From positions 62,001-126,000 of the forward strand of contig JAHHHA010000016.1 of the NCBI GenBank assembly GCA_019359615.1: 64,000 nucleotides of DNA. The letters run 5' to 3'. The DNA comes from Cyanosarcina radialis HA8281-LM2. Lineage in GTDB: Bacteria > Cyanobacteriota > Cyanobacteriia > Cyanobacteriales > CCAP-1448. This document shows positions 44,648 to 52,809 of this stretch, piece after piece (within the stretch, counting starts at the first letter, position 1; each line of letters opens with the position of its first letter). Made by a program: the position numbers and the translations under genes. Under the pieces are notes generated by a model, which made no database searches, had not been told where the DNA came from, and worked only from the letters and a program-made list of their open reading frames with translations.

Positions 44648-44735
44648 AAGGAGTTCAGGAGTCAGAAGTCAGGAGTCAGAAGTCAGGAGTTAAAAATTCC
44701 CCGCTGTCTACCCTCTCTCCCTCTCCCTCTCTTAA
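44648..44735. repeat. AGTCAGGAGTCAGAAG repeats
   Basis: CAGGAGTCAGAAGT units and CTCTCCCTCTCC precede the end of the first DUF2330 gene. They fill the gap to the PMT gene. Confidence 0.7.
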
Positions 44736-46045
44736 TCCGTCCAGATGCTTCTCCAAAAGGGTTCGGACCGATCTGATACCAATTTCATCTTCTGACGGAT
44801 ATCTTCAACCCTCCAGCCTGTTAACTGCGATAGAGTTTGCGCCTGCTCCTCGGAGCGTTGCTTCAAAGATCTCTTATATTCTGCCGCTGCCGGACACTTC
44901 ATCTCGCCAGTATAGGGATGGCGTAAAACGTATCTTCCCTGGAATTGCTTGCGATTGGCTGTCTCTTGGAACATCAAATCTTCAGGGAATTTATCGCGAG
45001 TGTAGCGAACGTGAATTCGAGAAATGAAGACATTTGTGCCTTCATTGGGTTTGAGCCAAAATACTCCGGCTTTTTTGAGTTCTTCAACAGTTAACGGTTC
45101 TGCCGAGCAAGGATCGCAACTGCCCATATCCCAGGCATATTCCAAGAAAGCAACCTTTTTGCTTTCTTTGGTGTAAGCATTTTGGAACATCGCTTTGTAA
45201 AAGTCACTAAATTCATTTTTCACAAATAGGGGAATTTCACTATCAGATGGTACTTTGACGGTGCGATAGTTAGTGACTTCTGCTTGTCCTTTGGGAGATA
45301 AAACGTAGACGATTAAATCTTGTTCGGTCTTACTATTAACCATCCCTAAGCGAATCGGCAACATGAATTTGGGCGATTCGTAGGCTATCATCAACGGACG
45401 CAAACTTTCATACCCAGATTTGTTAAATTCTTTCAGGTTTACTTTAGCGACAAAGAATTTCATCTTTTGTCGGATATAAGGTTGTAGCAATTGACTGGCT
45501 CCTGAAGGAATGCGATAGCCATTTTGTTTGAGCCAAGTTTCTAAACCGCTAGATTCTTTGGCGCTCAAAATCAAGATTTCATATTCCCCAACGTTGAACT
45601 GTGCCTCTATGGTGACACCAAGGGTACTTCGAGCCGGAGGCGACTGGGGAGCACCTCCTGCTGGTGCTGGTAATGGTGGTGGTGTCTCGCTAGCAGGGTA
45701 AACTTGACAAGGATTATCATCAAAATATTCCACCAAGCGCGGGGCGCTGAAAGCGTCTAATCGTTCCACAATCTTGGGATCGCCAATGCGAACTTGTTCT
45801 TTTTCAATGGCTACAGGAACGGGCACGACGATCGCAAAATCTTTCACGTCTCCTTGATAGTCATTGGCCATAGTTAAAATGGTGCGATCGCTATCTCTAG
45901 CTATGACTACTTGAGAGGCTTGGTTGTAGAGCTTAGTATCGGCTTTAGCGACATAAAAACCGCAAAATCCCCAGGCATTCGGTGTATATCCAATAAAAAT
46001 TATTAAGGACAGAATACAGCTTAATGAGATGCGAAGTCGGTTCAT
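44732..46045 (-). CDS. DUF2330 exported protein, copy 1
   Basis: This 437-residue protein has a signal peptide (ISLSCILSLIIFIGY...AWG) cleaved before FCGFYVAKADTKLYN, which starts the DUF2330 region. The domain contains VVIARDSDRTILTMANDYQG, FAIVVPVPVAI, a variable Pro-rich stretch, EAQFNVGEYEILILSAKES, WLKQNGYRIP, a KFFVAKVNL strand, the Cys pair WDMGSCDPCSAEPLT, and RIHVRYTRDKFPEDLMF. Five cysteines are shared by all four paralogues. CDPCS is not a CxxCH heme site. GGAG lies seven bases before the ATG. It is the last copy of the array and follows a 194-nt hairpin-containing gap. Function unknown. Confidence 0.9.
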   Translation of the reverse strand: MNRLRISLSCILSLIIFIGYTPNAWGFCGFYVAKADTKLYNQASQVVIARDSDRTILTMANDYQGDVKDFAIVVPVPVAIEKEQVRIGDPKIVERLDAFSAPRLVEYFDDNPCQVYPASETPPPLPAPAGGAPQSPPARSTLGVTIEAQFNVGEYEILILSAKESSGLETWLKQNGYRIPSGASQLLQPYIRQKMKFFVAKVNLKEFNKSGYESLRPLMIAYESPKFMLPIRLGMVNSKTEQDLIVYVLSPKGQAEVTNYRTVKVPSDSEIPLFVKNEFSDFYKAMFQNAYTKESKKVAFLEYAWDMGSCDPCSAEPLTVEELKKAGVFWLKPNEGTNVFISRIHVRYTRDKFPEDLMFQETANRKQFQGRYVLRHPYTGEMKCPAAAEYKRSLKQRSEEQAQTLSQLTGWRVEDIRQKMKLVSDRSEPFWRSIWTD

Positions 46046-46162
46046 AATTCGCTCCGATCGAGATGCAATAATTAGACGATCTATTCTTGCGCCAAGATAG
46101 TACGCATGAAAAGAGAAAAACGTAAAAAGTTACAACTAGGATATATACCAAATATTACCTAG

Positions 46163-46211
46163 TCTTCTTTAGAGGACTTTAGCTATGAGCCAGGGGTTTT
46201 GCACCCCTGGC
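46163..46211. repeat. hairpin between DUF2330 copies 2 and 1
   Basis: GCCAGGGGT and ACCCCTGGC (9-bp stem, TTTGC loop, 46189-46211) after TCTTTAGAGGACTTT. It is related to the repeat at 5652-5786. Confidence 0.75.
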
Positions 46212-46239
46212 GGTTGTTGCTACTGAGAATCGATGATGG

Positions 46240-47748
46240 CTATAAAACAAACATCACATATATAGCGATCGATCCCAAAATAGCCAAGAGAGCTAGTAAG
46301 ATATACATTCCTTTCCAAGGATTTGACGTGCTAGCATCTTCTGACAAAGCTACTTGAGTAGTTTGCGGTTGGGAATTACTTTGAGCGACATCAGTAGTTT
46401 GAGTTTGAGAATTACTTTGCTTATCCCAAATAGTTTCCCAAAATGGAGTTGGACTAACGCTAGTAGAGGGGTATTCAGCTAAATTCATTTTTTGACGAAT
46501 ACTTGGCAAATTCCATCCAGTTAAGCTAGATAAAGTCTGGGCTTCTCGTTCAAAACGCGCTGGTAGAGACTTTTGATATTCAGCACCAGCTTGACAAGTA
46601 GTCGATCCTTTAAAGGGATGCCGCAGTACGTAACGCCCTTGAAATTGTTCGCGATTAGCTGTTTCTTGGAACATCAAATCTTCAGGGAATTTATCGCGGG
46701 TGTAGCGAACGTGAATTCGAGTGATGAAAGCATTACTGCCTTCGTTTGGTTTGAGCCAAAATACCCCAGCTTTTTTCAGTTCTTCAGGAGTTAGAGGATC
46801 GGCAGAACATGGATCGCAACTGCCCATATCCCAGGCATATTCTAAGAAGGCTACTTTTCTGTCTTCTTTACTGTAAGCATTTTGGAACATCGATTTATAA
46901 AAGTCGCCAAATTCGTTTTTGACAAACACGGGGATTTCGTCACCTGACGGGACTTTGACAGTACGATAGTTGGTGACTTCTGCTTGTCCTTTAGGCGATA
47001 AAACGTAGACGATTAAATCTTGTTCGCTAGTGGAGTTAATCATGCCCAATCGAATTGGCAGCATGAATTTGGGCGATTCGTAGGCTATCATCAAAGGACG
47101 TAAATTTTGATAGCCAGATTTGTTGAATTCGGCAATATTGACTTTAGCAACAAAGAATTTCATTTGTTGCCGAATGTAAGGTTGCAGCAGCGAACTCGCT
47201 CCTGAAGGCATTCGGTAGCCGTTTTGTTTGAGCCAAGTTTCTAAACCGTCAGATTCTTTGGCACTCAAAACCAAAATTTCATATTCGCCTACGTTGAACT
47301 GCGCTTCGACGGTAACGCCTAAAGAAGTCTTGCGTTCTTGGCGTAGACTTTCATTAGCTGCTGGTGCCGATTGTGGTACAGGTATTGCCCCATCGTAATA
47401 AACTTGTTGGCAAGGATCGGAGTCAAAGTATTCTACTAATCTGGGGGCGCTAAAAGCATCTAATCGTTCGATAACTTTAGCATCGCCAATTTTAACTTGT
47501 TCTTTCTGTAAAACTACAGGAACGGGAACGACGATCGCAAAGTCTTTTACGTCTCCTTGGTAGTCGTTTGCCATCGTTAAAATAGTGCGTTTATCATCTT
47601 TAGCAATGACGACTTGCGAGGCTTTGTTATACAGCTTGCTATCGGCTTTGGCGACATAAAATCCGCAAAATGCCCAAGCATTTGGGGTGAAGCTTATAAA
47701 GATAACTAAAGCCAGAATACAGCTTAATAAGATCCTAAATGGTTTCAT
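46240..47748 (-). CDS. DUF2330 exported protein, copy 2, C-terminally membrane anchored
   Basis: This 502-residue protein has the same plan as its neighbours: signal peptide (LLSCILALVIFISFT, cut near AWA), FCGFYVAKADSKLYN, the five invariant cysteines including GSCDPCSADPLT, and the conserved C-terminal PFWETIWDK. It then adds a Gln-Thr-rich linker and one membrane helix (GMYILLALLAILGSIAIYVMFVL) that the other three copies lack. This copy is therefore tethered by its tail, facing the periplasm or lumen, and could hold the soluble copies. AGGAG lies before the ATG. Confidence 0.9.
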   Translation of the reverse strand: MKPFRILLSCILALVIFISFTPNAWAFCGFYVAKADSKLYNKASQVVIAKDDKRTILTMANDYQGDVKDFAIVVPVPVVLQKEQVKIGDAKVIERLDAFSAPRLVEYFDSDPCQQVYYDGAIPVPQSAPAANESLRQERKTSLGVTVEAQFNVGEYEILVLSAKESDGLETWLKQNGYRMPSGASSLLQPYIRQQMKFFVAKVNIAEFNKSGYQNLRPLMIAYESPKFMLPIRLGMINSTSEQDLIVYVLSPKGQAEVTNYRTVKVPSGDEIPVFVKNEFGDFYKSMFQNAYSKEDRKVAFLEYAWDMGSCDPCSADPLTPEELKKAGVFWLKPNEGSNAFITRIHVRYTRDKFPEDLMFQETANREQFQGRYVLRHPFKGSTTCQAGAEYQKSLPARFEREAQTLSSLTGWNLPSIRQKMNLAEYPSTSVSPTPFWETIWDKQSNSQTQTTDVAQSNSQPQTTQVALSEDASTSNPWKGMYILLALLAILGSIAIYVMFVL

Positions 47749-47789
47749 TACTTACTCCTATACATTTGAGAGGTATTATGGTTGAGTTC

Positions 47790-47820
47790 GTTGGGTTTCG
47801 CTTCGCTCAACCCAACCTAC
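47790..47820. repeat. hairpin between DUF2330 copies 3 and 2
   Basis: GTTGGGTT and AACCCAAC arms around TCGCTTCGCTC; a copy of the widespread GTTGGGTT repeat. It lies in the 89-nt gap between the two genes. Confidence 0.75.
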
Positions 47821-47837
47821 GGCTAAAAATCATGTGC

Positions 47838-49172
47838 TTATTCTCCCCAAATATCTTGCCAAAAAGGTGTGGGATTGGGATTCGGGGAATAATTGCTGGA
47901 AACGACGTTCATTTTGCTGCGAATATCCCGAATATTCCATCCCGTCAATTGAGCTAGAGTTCGGGCCTCTTGCTCGAATCTTCTCGGTAAAGAACGTTTG
48001 TATTCTTGTCCGGCGCGACAAGTAGCTTCTCCTTTAAATGGATGTTGGAGGACGTATCTTCCCTGAAATTGCTCGCGATTAGATGTCTCTTGAAACATCA
48101 AATCTTCGGGAAATTTATTGCGAGTGTACCTAACGTGAATTCGAGAAATAAAGGCATTACTACCCTTATCTGGTTTCAGCCAAAATACTCCTGCTTTCTT
48201 CAGTTCTTCGGGCGTTAGCGGTTCGGCCGAACAAGGATCGCAACTGCCCATATCCCAGGCATATTCCAAGAAGGCGATATTTTTACCTTCACGGGTATAT
48301 GAAGTTTGGAACATGGATTTATAAAAGTCGCTAAATTCATTTTTGACGAATACAGGAATGCGATCGCCTGTGGGCACCTTAACGGTACGATAGTTGGTAA
48401 CTTCTGCTTGTCCTTTGGGCGATAAAACGTAGACGATTAAATCTTGTTCGTTGGTAGAATTGATCGTACCCAAGCGAATTGGCAGCATGAATTTGCGCGA
48501 TTCGTAAGCTATCATTAACGGGCGTAAATTTTGATAACCAGATTTGTTAAATTCTCCGAGGTTGACTTTAGCTACAAAGAATTTCATCTGTTGCCGAATA
48601 TAAGGTTGCAGGAGTCGATCTGCCCCTCTGGGAATTCGATAGCCATTTTGTTTGAGCCAAGTAGCTAAACCGTTAGATTCTTTGGCACTCAAAACCAAGA
48701 TTTCATATTCGCCCACGTTGAAACGAGATTCAATTGTAACTCCAAGAGCGTTAGCATCAGCCCTTCTGCTTGGGGCTACAGGTCTGGGCAAATCCGTACT
48801 CAATCCCTCTCGACTTCGGTATAATATCCTCCGACAAGGATCGGAATCAAAATACTCTACTAATCGCGGGGCGCTAAAAGCATCTAGCCTTTCGATAACT
48901 TTGGCATCACCAATTCTTACTTGTTCTTTCTGAATGGCTACGGGAACCGGAACGATGATCGCAAAATCTTTTACATCTCCTTGATAGTCATTTGCCATAG
49001 TTAAAATGGTACGATTCTCATCTCTAGCCAGAACGACTTGCGATGCTTGGTTATATAACTTGGCATCGGCTTTGGCTACATAAAAGCCACAAAAGCCCCA
49101 AGCGTTAGGAGTAAAACCAACAAAAATAATTGCTGCTAAAATCAAACTAAATAAAAGACGAAATGGTTTCAT
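47838..49172 (-). CDS. DUF2330 exported protein, copy 3
   Basis: This 444-residue paralogue has a signal peptide (LLFSLILAAIIFVGF, cut near AWG), FCGFYVAKADAKLYN, the PVPVAIQKEQVRIGDAKVIERL block, and the five shared cysteines (GSCDPCSAEPLT near the middle of the C-terminal half). The stretch between DPC and GVTIESRFNVGEYEI is rich in Arg and Pro and differs from the other copies. It ends with PFWQDIWGE. The order within the array is copy 4, 3, 2, 1 in transcription. Confidence 0.9.
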   Translation of the reverse strand: MKPFRLLFSLILAAIIFVGFTPNAWGFCGFYVAKADAKLYNQASQVVLARDENRTILTMANDYQGDVKDFAIIVPVPVAIQKEQVRIGDAKVIERLDAFSAPRLVEYFDSDPCRRILYRSREGLSTDLPRPVAPSRRADANALGVTIESRFNVGEYEILVLSAKESNGLATWLKQNGYRIPRGADRLLQPYIRQQMKFFVAKVNLGEFNKSGYQNLRPLMIAYESRKFMLPIRLGTINSTNEQDLIVYVLSPKGQAEVTNYRTVKVPTGDRIPVFVKNEFSDFYKSMFQTSYTREGKNIAFLEYAWDMGSCDPCSAEPLTPEELKKAGVFWLKPDKGSNAFISRIHVRYTRNKFPEDLMFQETSNREQFQGRYVLQHPFKGEATCRAGQEYKRSLPRRFEQEARTLAQLTGWNIRDIRSKMNVVSSNYSPNPNPTPFWQDIWGE

Positions 49173-49201
49173 GGTTAACTACCTATCTTCAACATCAATT
49201 G

Positions 49202-49232
49202 AGGTAGAGGTGATTCATGAAACACCTCTACC
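49202..49232. repeat. hairpin between DUF2330 copies 4 and 3
   Basis: AGGTAGAGGTG and CACCTCTACCT form a perfect 11-bp stem with a nine-base loop. It occupies the 71-nt gap between the genes. Confidence 0.8.
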
Positions 49233-49243
49233 TGACTTCTGCA

Positions 49244-50569
49244 TTAATTACCTTCTTGCCAAATATTTCTCCAAAAAGGTTCAGTTTGAGTTTGTGCCAG
49301 ATCCATCTTTTGGCGAATATCTTGAATTTTCCAGCCCGTCAACTTAGCCAAAGTTTCTCCTTCTCGATCGAATCTTTTAGCTAACGATTTCTTGTATTGT
49401 TCGCCCGCCTGACAAGTCATCGATCCTTTAAACGGATGCCGCAGTACGTAACGTCCTTGAAATTGTTCGCGATTAGCTGTTGCTTGAAACATCAAATCTT
49501 CGGGAAATTTATCGCGGGTGTAGCGGACGTGAATTCGCGAAATAAAGGCATTACTACCTTCATCTGGTTTCAGCCAAAATACTCCAGCTTTTTTGAGTTC
49601 TTCAACAGTTAACGGTTCCGCCGAACAAGGATCGCAACTCCCCATATCCCAGGCATATTCCAAGAAGGCTGTTTTTTTACCTTCTTTGGTGTAACTGTTT
49701 TGGAACATGGCTTTGTAGAAGTCGCTAAATTCGTTTTTGACAAATGGGGGGATTTCGTCACCCGATGGCACTTTGACGGTGCGATAGTTGGTTACTTCTG
49801 CTTGTCCTTTAGGGGATAAAACGTAGACAATTAAGTCTTGTTCGCTGGTGGAATTAATCGTACCCAAGCGAATTGGCAACATGAATTTAGGAGATTCGTA
49901 GGCTATCATCAAAGGGCGTAAATTTTGATAGCCCGATCTATTAAATTCTGCCAGATTGACTTTAGCGACAAAGAACTTCATTTGTTGCCGAATGTAAGGT
50001 TGCAATAATTGATTTGCTCCTTTGGGAATTCGGTAGCCATTTTGTTTGAGCCAAGTAGCTAAACCATTAGATTCTTTGGCACTGAGGATGAGGATTTCAT
50101 ATTCTCCGACATTAAATTTAGATTCTACAGTTACCCCCAAAGCCGTGTCTGAGGACCTCTGGGCTACTGCGCCGTTAAGAGCAGATCCGGTCGAAAAAAA
50201 TCGGAGATCCTGTTCGGCTTCTTCGAGTTGACAAGGATCGGAGTCAAAGTATTCTACTAATCGAGGGGCGCTAAAAGCATCTAACCTCTCGATAACTTTG
50301 GCATCGCCAATTCTTACTTGTTCTTTTTGGATAGCTACCGGAACCGGAACGACGATCGCAAAGTCTTTGACATTTCCTTGATAATCGTTTGCCATGGTTA
50401 AAATGGTGCGATTCTCATCTCTAGCTAAAACAACTTGCGAGGCTTGGTTATATAACTTGGCATCGGCTTTAGCTACATAAAAACCGCAGAATGCCCAAGC
50501 ATTTGGAGGGAAGCTAATAAAGATAACAAACGCGAGAATGCAGCTTAATACAATACGAAATACTTTCAC
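49244..50569 (-). CDS. DUF2330 exported protein, copy 4
   Basis: This 441-residue protein is the first DUF2330 gene behind the RnfD-like gene. The GTG at 50569 is chosen because AGGAG is six bases upstream and the resulting MKVFRIVLSCILA start matches the other copies; a TTG at 50575 is also in frame. Signal peptide, FCGFYVAKAD, the five cysteines (NPC/DPC, GSCDPC, TCQAG) and the PFWRNIW end are present. The DPC to GVTVESKFNVGEYEI linker is again copy-specific. It is 27 nt from the RnfD-like stop, so the two are very likely co-transcribed. Confidence 0.9.
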   Translation of the reverse strand: MKVFRIVLSCILAFVIFISFPPNAWAFCGFYVAKADAKLYNQASQVVLARDENRTILTMANDYQGNVKDFAIVVPVPVAIQKEQVRIGDAKVIERLDAFSAPRLVEYFDSDPCQLEEAEQDLRFFSTGSALNGAVAQRSSDTALGVTVESKFNVGEYEILILSAKESNGLATWLKQNGYRIPKGANQLLQPYIRQQMKFFVAKVNLAEFNRSGYQNLRPLMIAYESPKFMLPIRLGTINSTSEQDLIVYVLSPKGQAEVTNYRTVKVPSGDEIPPFVKNEFSDFYKAMFQNSYTKEGKKTAFLEYAWDMGSCDPCSAEPLTVEELKKAGVFWLKPDEGSNAFISRIHVRYTRDKFPEDLMFQATANREQFQGRYVLRHPFKGSMTCQAGEQYKKSLAKRFDREGETLAKLTGWKIQDIRQKMDLAQTQTEPFWRNIWQEGN

Positions 50570-50596
50570 GAACAACTCCTCAGATAAGTAAATAGT

Positions 50597-51562
50597 TCAT
50601 CCGACCTGTGATTTTTCTCTTTCCATCTGAGGCGCAGATTTGGGAGCGATCGCTAGATCTAAAGTCAGATTTTCTGTGAAACTAGGAGACGTTTCTTGCC
50701 AAGAAAATCTCGGTGCTTGCCAGATCGAGTCGAAAACAATTGTCAGCGGTGCTAAGGCAAACAATGCCCAAAAAACGGCAGTGGGAATGAAAAAGTAGTT
50801 GCGTAAAATAAAGGTTAGTAAGGCTATAGATATCGCCCACAGATAGCGACTAATTCTGGCATTGGGAATCGATCGCGGATCGGTAATCATAAACAAAGCA
50901 AACAGCAGCAGCGAACCGCTCATCAAGCGATGCCAATATACGTCCCAAGTCCATCCCAGCCAAAAATTGCGAATGGCTTCTAGTAAGGCATAAGCACCCA
51001 AAAAAGCAGCCGTTGTATCCCAGCGCCCTACTTTTTTGACAATTAAGCCGCCAGTACCAGCAAACAAAAGCAGATACCACCAATCTTCTCCCCATTGTCC
51101 GGGAGAAACCCAAGCATCTTGAGTTAAAACTAAAACCGCAATGATGCCGATATTTGCTGGATTGAAAAAATGTTTGTCTTTAATTTTGAAAATAAACTTA
51201 CTAGAAATCGCGATCGCACCTGCCAAAACCATCGTCGAGCAATGGTCTACTCGCAGCAATAAACTAAGTCCTAAAGAGGTGATAATCGCACTGCGAAATG
51301 CTGGTTTAACTAAACTAAAATTAAATACGTCAGCTAAATTTTTAGTGTCAATTAAACCTTCGGTATTTCCATTATCCCGTGCATCTTTGTTATCTACTTC
51401 TATGAAATACTTCAGCGATGCAGCCACCCACTGAGTCAGACAACAAGTAGCGATCGCTACTAAAATAAATTCAGGGTGTAGAGTCCAGTCTCTAGTTCCA
51501 ATCCCTAAAACTAAGAACAGAGAGAGAAACAGGATTTGATAATCTCTGGCATCTTTTAGCAC
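50597..51562 (-). CDS. RnfD/NqrB-like membrane protein
   Basis: This 321-residue protein has about nine membrane helices and the NQR2/RnfD/RnfE signature features: KDKHFFNPANIGIIAVL, LLFAGTGGLIVKKVGRWDT and ALFMITDPRSIPNARISRY. In RnfD and NqrB a flavin is attached to a Thr in an (S/D)GAT motif; I do not see that motif, so it may lack flavin. No other rnf or nqr subunit gene is here. The start is GTG at 51562 preceded by GGGGGATA. It heads the DUF2330 array, which suggests it works with those exported proteins. Confidence 0.85.
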   Translation of the reverse strand: MLKDARDYQILFLSLFLVLGIGTRDWTLHPEFILVAIATCCLTQWVAASLKYFIEVDNKDARDNGNTEGLIDTKNLADVFNFSLVKPAFRSAIITSLGLSLLLRVDHCSTMVLAGAIAISSKFIFKIKDKHFFNPANIGIIAVLVLTQDAWVSPGQWGEDWWYLLLFAGTGGLIVKKVGRWDTTAAFLGAYALLEAIRNFWLGWTWDVYWHRLMSGSLLLFALFMITDPRSIPNARISRYLWAISIALLTFILRNYFFIPTAVFWALFALAPLTIVFDSIWQAPRFSWQETSPSFTENLTLDLAIAPKSAPQMEREKSQVG

Positions 51563-51711: not shown

Positions 51712-52203
51712 CTAATTCTCCTCCAATCGCTCGTACTGCTCTTGATGCGATCGCTTGAGTTGCAAATAAGTCTCGTCGTTCCTAGCTTTCTGCCACACGG
51801 CGTAAAACTCTTTGGCACTGGCGGCTTTAACGGGATCTTCTTCTCTAGGTAGCTCTTTTTTACCTTCACCGCTGTCAGTATATTTCCGACCAGTTTTGTG
51901 GTTGGCATAACGTCGAGAGCGCGTGTAACCCATTTGTAAAAACTTACGCGCCATGTCCATGCCCACAAAGTCTGATGCCTGCTTGTATTCGAGAAACATT
52001 TGGTAAATCTGGCGAGCCGATTCCCGTGCTATATCTGGAGTCTTGAATCTCCAGTGCGGCAAGATCTCGCTTTTGTAAGGCTCTACCAACAATACCCCTT
52101 GCTCTCCTTTACCGATGCGATACAAGTCAGGACGCTCTCTGAAATTGATTCGATCGAAGTCTAAGGTGTAGTCAAAGGCCCGAAACGACGTTTTCTTAGT
52201 CAA
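51712..52203 (-). CDS. DUF4385 protein
   Basis: This 163-residue protein matches DUF4385: FDYTLDFDRINFRERPDLYR at the start, GEQGVLLVEPYKSEILPHWRF (by its parts GEQGVLLVEPYKSE and ILPHWRF), the DFVGMDMARKFLQMGYTRSR helix and RRYANHKTGRKY. It is soluble with unknown function. It is nine bases behind the MerR gene, so they form an operon. Relatives are found in cyanobacteria and in some phages. Confidence 0.85.
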   Translation of the reverse strand: MTKKTSFRAFDYTLDFDRINFRERPDLYRIGKGEQGVLLVEPYKSEILPHWRFKTPDIARESARQIYQMFLEYKQASDFVGMDMARKFLQMGYTRSRRYANHKTGRKYTDSGEGKKELPREEDPVKAASAKEFYAVWQKARNDETYLQLKRSHQEQYERLEEN

Positions 52204-52212
52204 AATACCACC

Positions 52213-52644
52213 TCAAACCGACGCGCTACTTCGAGCCTGTTCAATAATCGGGCAGATGGTATCTTCAGGCTTCTCCGGCACGATTTCCCAACCAGATAGC
52301 ACCCCTGTTAGCTCCTGCTTGAGAATTTGCAATTGTTGAATTTGTTGCTCGATCTGCGAGAGCTTATCTTCTAACTTGACCTTAATGCGATCGCACGGCA
52401 ATTCACCTCGATCGTGTACTTCTAAAAGCTCTTCGATCTCTAGCAAGCTCAATCCTAAACTTTGAGCGCGTTTGATGAAGCGCAATCGACCAAAGACATC
52501 TGAGTTGAATAACCGATAGTTACTCCTCGTTCTCCCGCAGGTCTTGAGTAATCCCAACTCTTCATAATAGCGGATGGTTTTAATTGGCAGCCCGCTTTCC
52601 TTTGCAACCGAACCAATCCGTTTTAATTCTTCTTGAGCTAGCAT
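52213..52644 (-). CDS. MerR family transcriptional regulator
   Basis: This 143-residue protein has the MerR winged-helix: RIGSVAKESGLPIKTIRYYE, GLLKTCGRTRSNYRLF, then the dimerising helix IEQQIQQLQILKQEL. Cys in GELPCDR and a second in DTICPIIE are placed as in metal- or redox-sensing members (ZntR, SoxR, CueR branch), so it may sense metal or thiol stress. The ATG at 52644 is used; a GTG at 52650 is in frame. It is co-directional with the DUF4385 gene it may control. Confidence 0.88.
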   Translation of the reverse strand: MLAQEELKRIGSVAKESGLPIKTIRYYEELGLLKTCGRTRSNYRLFNSDVFGRLRFIKRAQSLGLSLLEIEELLEVHDRGELPCDRIKVKLEDKLSQIEQQIQQLQILKQELTGVLSGWEIVPEKPEDTICPIIEQARSSASV

Positions 52645-52809
52645 AATCACCCCACCAGTGCCATAGCTCTATTCTAATTACCCGCTAGCTTAGACAACTC
52701 CATCGATCGGACGAAGAGAGCGAACGCTTGATTCGGACTCATGATTGGTAATTGCGAGGAGAACATCCGGCCCGTCGTCTGTTGAGGACAGGCAAAATAC
52801 ATTGAGTTG

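Follow-up and report, generated by a model that had tools for sequence, protein, structure and literature searches.

A lone RnfD-like membrane protein paired with exported DUF2330 proteins in cyanobacteria: a candidate minimal electron conduit

The window analysed here, a 64,000-nucleotide stretch of the Cyanosarcina radialis HA8281-LM2 genome, raises the question of what a solitary gene related to the RnfD/NqrB subunits of Rnf and Na+-NQR might do beside four genes for exported proteins of the DUF2330 family (PF10092). The initial annotation had proposed that the products form an assembly of membrane and extracytoplasmic proteins with possible thiol or redox chemistry. A two-protein unit of this kind is apparently undescribed, and no mention of DUF2330, COG4402 or PF10092 was found in the literature searched.

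The gene array and its conservation in cyanobacteria

The five genes lie head to tail on the minus strand, as initially annotated, beginning with that of the RnfD/NqrB-like membrane protein (50597-51562; 321 aa, GTG start; PF03116, E 5.4e-16; model match RnfD 8rbq_D). DUF2330 copy 1 (49244-50569; PF10092, E 8e-74), which encodes a signal peptide followed by FCGFYVAKAD, has a GTG start 27 nt past the stop of the RnfD-like gene, and is followed by copy 2 (47838-49172; E 1e-73), copy 3 (46240-47748; E 4.5e-74), whose product is extended at its C-terminus and ends there in a transmembrane helix, and copy 4 (44732-46045; E 6e-73). Given the GTG at 50569 as the start of copy 1, the gaps along the array are 27, 71, 89 and 194 nt. 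The last of these holds a perfect 9-bp inverted repeat (46189-46211, not assigned to a strand) that is a possible terminator or attenuator; this consensus match represents no excess over shuffles, and a promoter scan likewise gave no excess over shuffled sequence.

RnfD-like and DUF2330 genes usually occur one to one. Here the exported partner has expanded in tandem, locally and in this lineage, to four copies under purifying selection, and the number four is therefore not a defining feature of the unit.

The pairing itself is widespread. Among 291 cyanobacterial genomes surveyed with PF10092 and PF03116, DUF2330 occurs in 116, PF03116 in 119 and both in 113, and far from being rare neighbours, the RnfD-like gene lies directly upstream of DUF2330 on the same strand in 102 of these 113; the 11 genomes in which the genes are not adjacent still keep both. 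About 40% of the sampled genomes have the unit, including Nostoc, Anabaena, Calothrix, Oscillatoria and Pseudanabaena, and the pair is present at 75 of 80 named genome loci. Two genomes have the genes fused: in one (L052) the two proteins are encoded by a single ORF of 743 aa, and the RnfD-DUF2330 fusion of the other (L084) carries a frame break late in its sequence. As the same pair is found in more than 100 other genomes, linkage by chance can be excluded, and adjacency in 102 of 113 genomes rejects recent duplication as well. A larger conserved operon was also rejected: in 40 neighbourhoods there was no further conserved neighbour, any third gene occurring in at most 5. Because of these adjacency counts and natural fusions, the membrane-plus-exported functional unit that had been suggested from the window is well supported.

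Beyond the class Cyanobacteriia, one genome (G333) has its RnfD-like gene paired only with a DUF2330 protein of the CDPC type described below, and not with its two divergent copies. Among sister-class genomes with only divergent DUF2330, PF03116 had no match in four that were sampled, and in a fifth matched only a canonical protein.

The lone RnfD-like membrane protein

PF03116 matches the C-terminal half of the RnfD-like protein, and the predicted model has the full NqrB/RnfD fold, aligning to RnfD 8rbq_D with Z 23.1 and 2.8 Å over 244 residues and to NqrB with Z of about 20.6. The riboflavin ligands of NqrB are T162, N200, N203 and D346 (PMC10643135). T162, N203 and D346 correspond to T95, N134 and D228, which are conserved in 111/114, 114/114 and 114/114 cyanobacterial sequences, respectively, and the equivalent of N200 is an invariant His, so three of the four side-chain ligands are kept. 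The HxxNPAN motif (residues 131-137; 51152-51172) contains both N134 and the substituting H131 (PMC10643135), and Asp228 is encoded at 50879-50881.

The covalent flavin site has been lost. Alignment with canonical Methylococcus RnfD places a WVSPGQWG loop (residues 151-158; 51089-51112) where the TGAT-bearing segment of RnfD is missing, this periplasmic segment having been deleted between WVSP and GQWG. This deletion accounts for the absence of the (S/D)GAT attachment motif, already reported as lacking, and none of 121 lone RnfD-like sequences has a flavinylation motif at this junction. A Pfam search found no PF00175 NAD-binding domain in the protein, and the part of NqrB before residue 50 is without counterpart in the aligned model; hence no cytoplasmic electron donor was identified.

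The remaining machinery is missing as well. PF03116 has a single match in the whole genome, and RnfA/E (PF02508), FMN_bind (PF04205; RnfG/NqrC) and ApbE (PF02424) have no match anywhere in it, which extends the absence of other rnf/nqr genes from the window to the genome. Membership of a full Rnf/Nqr complex was rejected on these grounds.

These losses could be taken to mean that no electrons are moved at all: the RnfD-like protein would have gone back to being a channel for solutes or ions, built on the ammonium/urea-transporter fold, and exported DUF2330 would serve it as lid, receptor or gating subunit. AmtB and urea-transporter structures, which share the NqrB/RnfD fold, do match the model (Z 10-12), and the missing covalent flavin, ApbE and other Rnf/Nqr subunits would fit a channel, as would the want of an identified cytoplasmic redox partner. 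We nevertheless consider this unlikely: the model is much closer to RnfD/NqrB structures (Z 20-23), near-invariant riboflavin ligands would be needless in a plain channel, and a hydrophobic constriction and the riboflavin site block the passage in published RnfD/NqrB structures (PMC9588780, PMC12174285).

The exported DUF2330 proteins

PF10092 matches each of the four products with an E of about 1e-73 and scores of 246-250 bits, against a Pfam cut-off of 24.7, across the domain. All four share FCGFYVAKAD, GSCDPCS and five invariant cysteines, as initially annotated, and these cysteines are invariant in 71 of 71 aligned relatives. The CDPC motif of copy 1 lies at 49625-49636 (Cys 312 and 315, numbered from the GTG start). 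The five cysteines may in part form structural disulphides. The C-terminal motif had been read as PFW-x-IW and is in fact PFWxxIW; a motif of this type is present, but it is not the end of every copy, as copy 3 continues past it into its transmembrane helix. Thiol chemistry does not go with the entire family, since divergent, unlinked DUF2330 proteins outside Cyanobacteriia are without CDPC.

A sequence search of the PDB returned no DUF2330 relative. When the RnfD-like protein and DUF2330 were modelled as a pseudo-fusion, with the TGA read as Trp to mimic the natural fusion, both domains were confident; at a pTM of 0.52 we claim no interface between them.

In Foldseek the DUF2330 model is matched best by baculovirus P35, both in the PDB (E 8e-5, probability 1.0) and among viral models (probability 0.98); P35 comes from insect viruses and inhibits caspases in the cytosol. 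In VIA-align it scores Z 9.8 over 217/281 residues, and Z 10.0 with a second model, versus about 6.2-6.6 for the next unrelated fold. DUF2330 could accordingly be related to P35 in fold and, in the envelope, regulate proteases or act as bait; the RnfD-like protein could then be the platform on which it docks at the membrane, or a redox sensor. The working parts of P35 are its N-terminus and reactive site loop (PMC3375223), with which one may tentatively compare the invariant Cys at position 2 of the predicted mature DUF2330 N-terminus and the variable, low-confidence loop that follows a conserved helix in the model. This reading is quite unlikely in our view: TM-scores against P35 are low (0.26-0.37), and function is not shown by a fold match. 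Homology to P35 was not found by sequence: the P35 profile (PF02331) matches none of 71 DUF2330 members and misses the genes of the window.

It is very unlikely that the DUF2330 proteins are instead assembly, stability or maturation factors for an RnfD-like protein that alone carries the activity. The strict order of the genes, their short gaps and the fusions would be just as expected of a chaperone and its client, but other lineages have DUF2330 without any RnfD-like gene, and the partner duplicated and diversified here is DUF2330.

A possible electron conduit and its relation to known systems

The reading we prefer, at a probability of roughly 40%, is that the RnfD-like protein is a single-subunit flavin conduit that exchanges electrons across the membrane with DUF2330. 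It starts from what was directly observed, namely the conserved pairing, the fusions, the conservation of fold and residues and the missing flavinylation machinery. The RnfD-like protein would act as a stand-alone membrane electron conduit: it no longer has the covalent FMN that RnfD/NqrB carry on the periplasmic side, and close to the cytoplasmic face it probably binds a single non-covalent flavin of the riboflavin type. Exported DUF2330 would take the position of RnfG/NqrC, docked to the outside of the conduit, exchange electrons with it, most simply via the CDPC cysteine pair, and give electrons to, or take them from, some extracytoplasmic substrate. Duplication of this exported partner has given four versions in the present lineage, one of them membrane-anchored. 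Of what had been suggested for the array, the shared unit stands; the redox part we infer from the riboflavin-site residues, a thioredoxin-like neighbour in a related system and the invariant CDPC, and the direction of flow and the cytoplasmic redox partner are inferred as well. Flavin-based extracytoplasmic electron transfer is reported to be strikingly underrepresented in cyanobacteria (PMC8238504); if the unit moves electrons, these bacteria would nevertheless have a flavin conduit of minimal build across the membrane.

The RnfD-like protein shares with RnfD/NqrB of Rnf and Na+-NQR the whole 10-helix fold, the riboflavin-site T, N and D and the TDP motif; it differs in the deleted covalent-FMN segment, the His at the position of Asn200 and the lack of other rnf/nqr genes. 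Also comparable are NQR/RNF-like systems of two subunits, in which an NqrB/RnfD-fold subunit without a membrane flavinylation site is combined with one exported partner (Meheust 2021, PMC8238504; PMC11334425). Those systems have a C-terminal PF00175 and an FMN-bind partner, both absent here, whereas in our case the partner is DUF2330 and the genome is without ApbE. DUF2330 proteins of other lineages have the same Pfam domain and are also exported, but they have an ACGG(x)FC or CACGG N-terminus, no CDPC and no RnfD-like neighbour, and many are about 600 aa long with a C-terminal membrane anchor. With baculovirus P35 the comparison is one of fold only, P35 being the top structural match in two libraries and for two models, and no sequence similarity was detected.

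Among Bacillota and Actinomycetota, sampled through plasmids only, a Metabacillus plasmid carries a relative of the RnfD-like gene that shares a 4-nt overlap with a gene for a membrane-anchored AhpC/TSA-redoxin (thioredoxin-like) protein with a CxxC motif; this neighbour is a single case. Through the RnfD-like protein of Metabacillus runs the sequence link between the cyanobacterial RnfD-like proteins and UnbU, a further relative that sits in enediyne clusters. UnbU, too, stands alone as an RnfD-like protein, has the HxxNP motif and lacks the covalent site; in place of DUF2330, it is partnered by UnbV/CRTAC1, DUF1702 and an enediyne polyketide synthase. UnbU-type genes elsewhere have polyketide synthase or UnbV genes beside them, the RnfD-like gene of the window has neither, and an enediyne cluster was rejected there on that account. 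Two genomes with PF03116 and without DUF2330 (G033 and G072) carry UnbU-type genes beside ORFs of about 1900-2000 aa, and the second PF03116 gene of G225 is also UnbU-type and beside such an ORF.

A broader generalisation, which we regard as doubtful, is that lone HxxNP RnfD-like proteins in general make up one class of transmembrane electron conduits, each a single subunit with non-covalently bound flavin, and that their exported partner varies (DUF2330 in cyanobacteria, a thioredoxin-like protein on the Bacillota plasmid, UnbV in enediyne clusters), and that DUF2330 is the first cellular family with a P35-like fold. Should the cyanobacterial unit move electrons, it would suggest a testable role for the UnbU protein of enediyne clusters.

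Architecture and origin of the gene array

The RnfD/NqrB-like gene (51562-50597, minus strand; PF03116, Pfam E 5e-16) is followed by four genes encoding exported DUF2330 proteins (PF10092, E about 1e-73 each) at 50569-49244, 49172-47838, 47748-46240 and 46045-44732, with gaps of 27, 71, 89 and 194 nt in minus-strand order. The coordinates and Pfam assignments agree with the head-to-tail, one-strand array described in the initial annotation. The features it had listed for the DUF2330 products, namely a signal-peptide-like start, FCGFYVAKAD, GSCDPCS and five shared cysteines, were found in all four. Copy 3 (46240-47748) alone is extended C-terminally, by ~60 residues ending in a predicted transmembrane helix, and is probably the membrane-anchored one among the four exported partners. 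A perfect 9-bp palindrome, GCCAGGGGTTTTGCACCCCTGGC, at 46189-46211 in the 194-nt gap that separates copy 3 from copy 4, the longest of the array, could be a terminator or attenuator. Upstream of the RnfD-like gene, on the same strand at 51712-52650, lie a DUF4385 gene and a MerR-type regulator, neither of which recurs in other RnfD-like/DUF2330 neighbourhoods.

Whole-genome profile searches yielded no second PF03116 or fifth PF10092 gene and no match to RnfA/E (PF02508), FMN_bind (PF04205) or the flavinylation enzyme ApbE (PF02424), in keeping with the earlier claim that no other rnf/nqr gene is present. The fourfold array is local. A single DUF2330 copy is found in 100 of 116 DUF2330-bearing genomes. 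Two tandem copies are present in the nearest relative sampled, and they form one clade with the four of the window; these four group together with weak support (0.565). Because pairwise dN/dS is 0.11-0.15 at a dS of 0.9-1.5, the copies are old and constrained.

Distribution and specificity of the pair

The pairing of RnfD-like and DUF2330 genes is ancient and general. Among 291 cyanobacterial genomes, 116 carry DUF2330, 119 carry PF03116 and 113 carry both. The initial annotation had suggested, from the window alone, that the two belong to one assembly; they neighbour each other in other genomes too, the DUF2330 domain beginning 104-829 nt after the RnfD-like domain end on the same strand in 102 of the 113, and genomes with non-adjacent genes still encode both. 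In a separate set of named genome loci the pair was seen at 75 of 80; of the other five, at least three begin near a contig end and one (L157) has a different ORF upstream. No third gene family recurred in more than 5 of 40 neighbourhoods. The two domains share one 743-aa reading frame at L052 and a fusion whose frame is broken late at L084. Two genomes with PF03116 only (G033, G072) carry a gene of the type of UnbU, the lone RnfD-like protein of enediyne clusters, beside a ~1900-2000-aa ORF as in enediyne-like clusters; two others are incomplete assemblies. Cyanobacterial UnbU-type genes at L192 (6070-7035), L193 (3299-4264) and L194 (5724-6650) adjoin ORFs of ~1900-2000 and 659-673 aa, surroundings that are likely enediyne-like clusters.

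The RnfD-like gene pairs with only one DUF2330 type, that with an invariant CDPC. In one sister-class genome (G333), a CDPC-type DUF2330 gene directly adjoins the RnfD-like gene and two divergent copies sit elsewhere. Sister-class genomes with only divergent DUF2330 had no PF03116 match (G339, G350, G358, G362) or, in G343, a match to a canonical full-length protein, and CDPC was absent from the divergent sister-class copies that were read. G362 has nine DUF2330 matches (L206, L209, L210); most of those read over their whole length reach ~600 aa or more and carry at the C-terminus a Cys motif, a transmembrane helix and an Arg-rich tail, a layout resembling a surface-sorting signal. Within Cyanobacteriia, several divergent unlinked paralogues (L176-L179, L182), most of which keep CDPC, carry an insertion of two transmembrane helices in the variable loop that follows the conserved PC; this hints that the loop may face the membrane in the normal pair. 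A cyanobacterial-type DUF2330 gene on a Deinococcus sp. QL22 plasmid (L088 8001-9217) is split across frames and has no RnfD-like neighbour.

Predicted structures and proposed function

The RnfD-like protein was modelled as a pseudo-fusion with DUF2330, copying the natural fusion. Its best fold match was RnfD (Z 23.1; 2.8 Å, 244 residues), with NqrB at about 20.6. The (S/D)GAT motif is missing, as first reported: alignment with canonical RnfD shows the TGAT-bearing periplasmic flavinylation segment deleted, with WVSPGQWG remaining. Using published riboflavin-binding residues of NqrB (PMC10643135), with numbering verified against the PDB sequence, we mapped T162, N203 and D346 to T95, N134 and D228, which are kept in 111, 114 and 114 of 114 cyanobacterial sequences; the N200 position is an invariant His, a residue shared by the Metabacillus and UnbU relatives. 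The protein thus seems to have kept the riboflavin pocket and lost the covalent FMN, a loss that agrees with the missing ApbE.

As the most likely function (probability roughly 0.4), we propose a single-subunit flavin conduit, in which flavin held in the RnfD-like subunit would carry electrons through the membrane, to or from DUF2330 on the far side. The next-ranked fold matches were ammonium and urea transporters (Z 10-12), below RnfD and NqrB, and it is unlikely that the RnfD-like protein is instead a channel. The DUF2330 model (pLDDT 75, pTM 0.76) gave baculovirus P35 as its top match in the PDB and in viral models, as did a second model; TM-scores were low and sequence profiles gave no support. 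A P35-like fold is a lead, and a match in fold says nothing of function. A P35-like regulatory role is slightly less probable than a channel. Least probable is a chaperone-client relationship between the neighbouring, occasionally fused proteins.

RnfD-like relatives and their gene neighbours

An RnfD-like relative with 37% identity over 192 residues is encoded on a Metabacillus plasmid (L089 7228-8615), where its gene shares 4 nt with that of a membrane-anchored AhpC/TSA-redoxin (CxxC); the two are possibly a simpler electron-transfer pair. These genes lie ~5 kb from mercury-resistance genes. The Metabacillus protein also matches UnbU, whose genes adjoin UnbV/CRTAC1. The redoxin overlap and the UnbU neighbourhood suggest that lone RnfD-like proteins pair with different exported partners, and published two-subunit NQR/RNF-like systems (PMC8238504, PMC11334425) are a precedent for such a protein with an exported partner.
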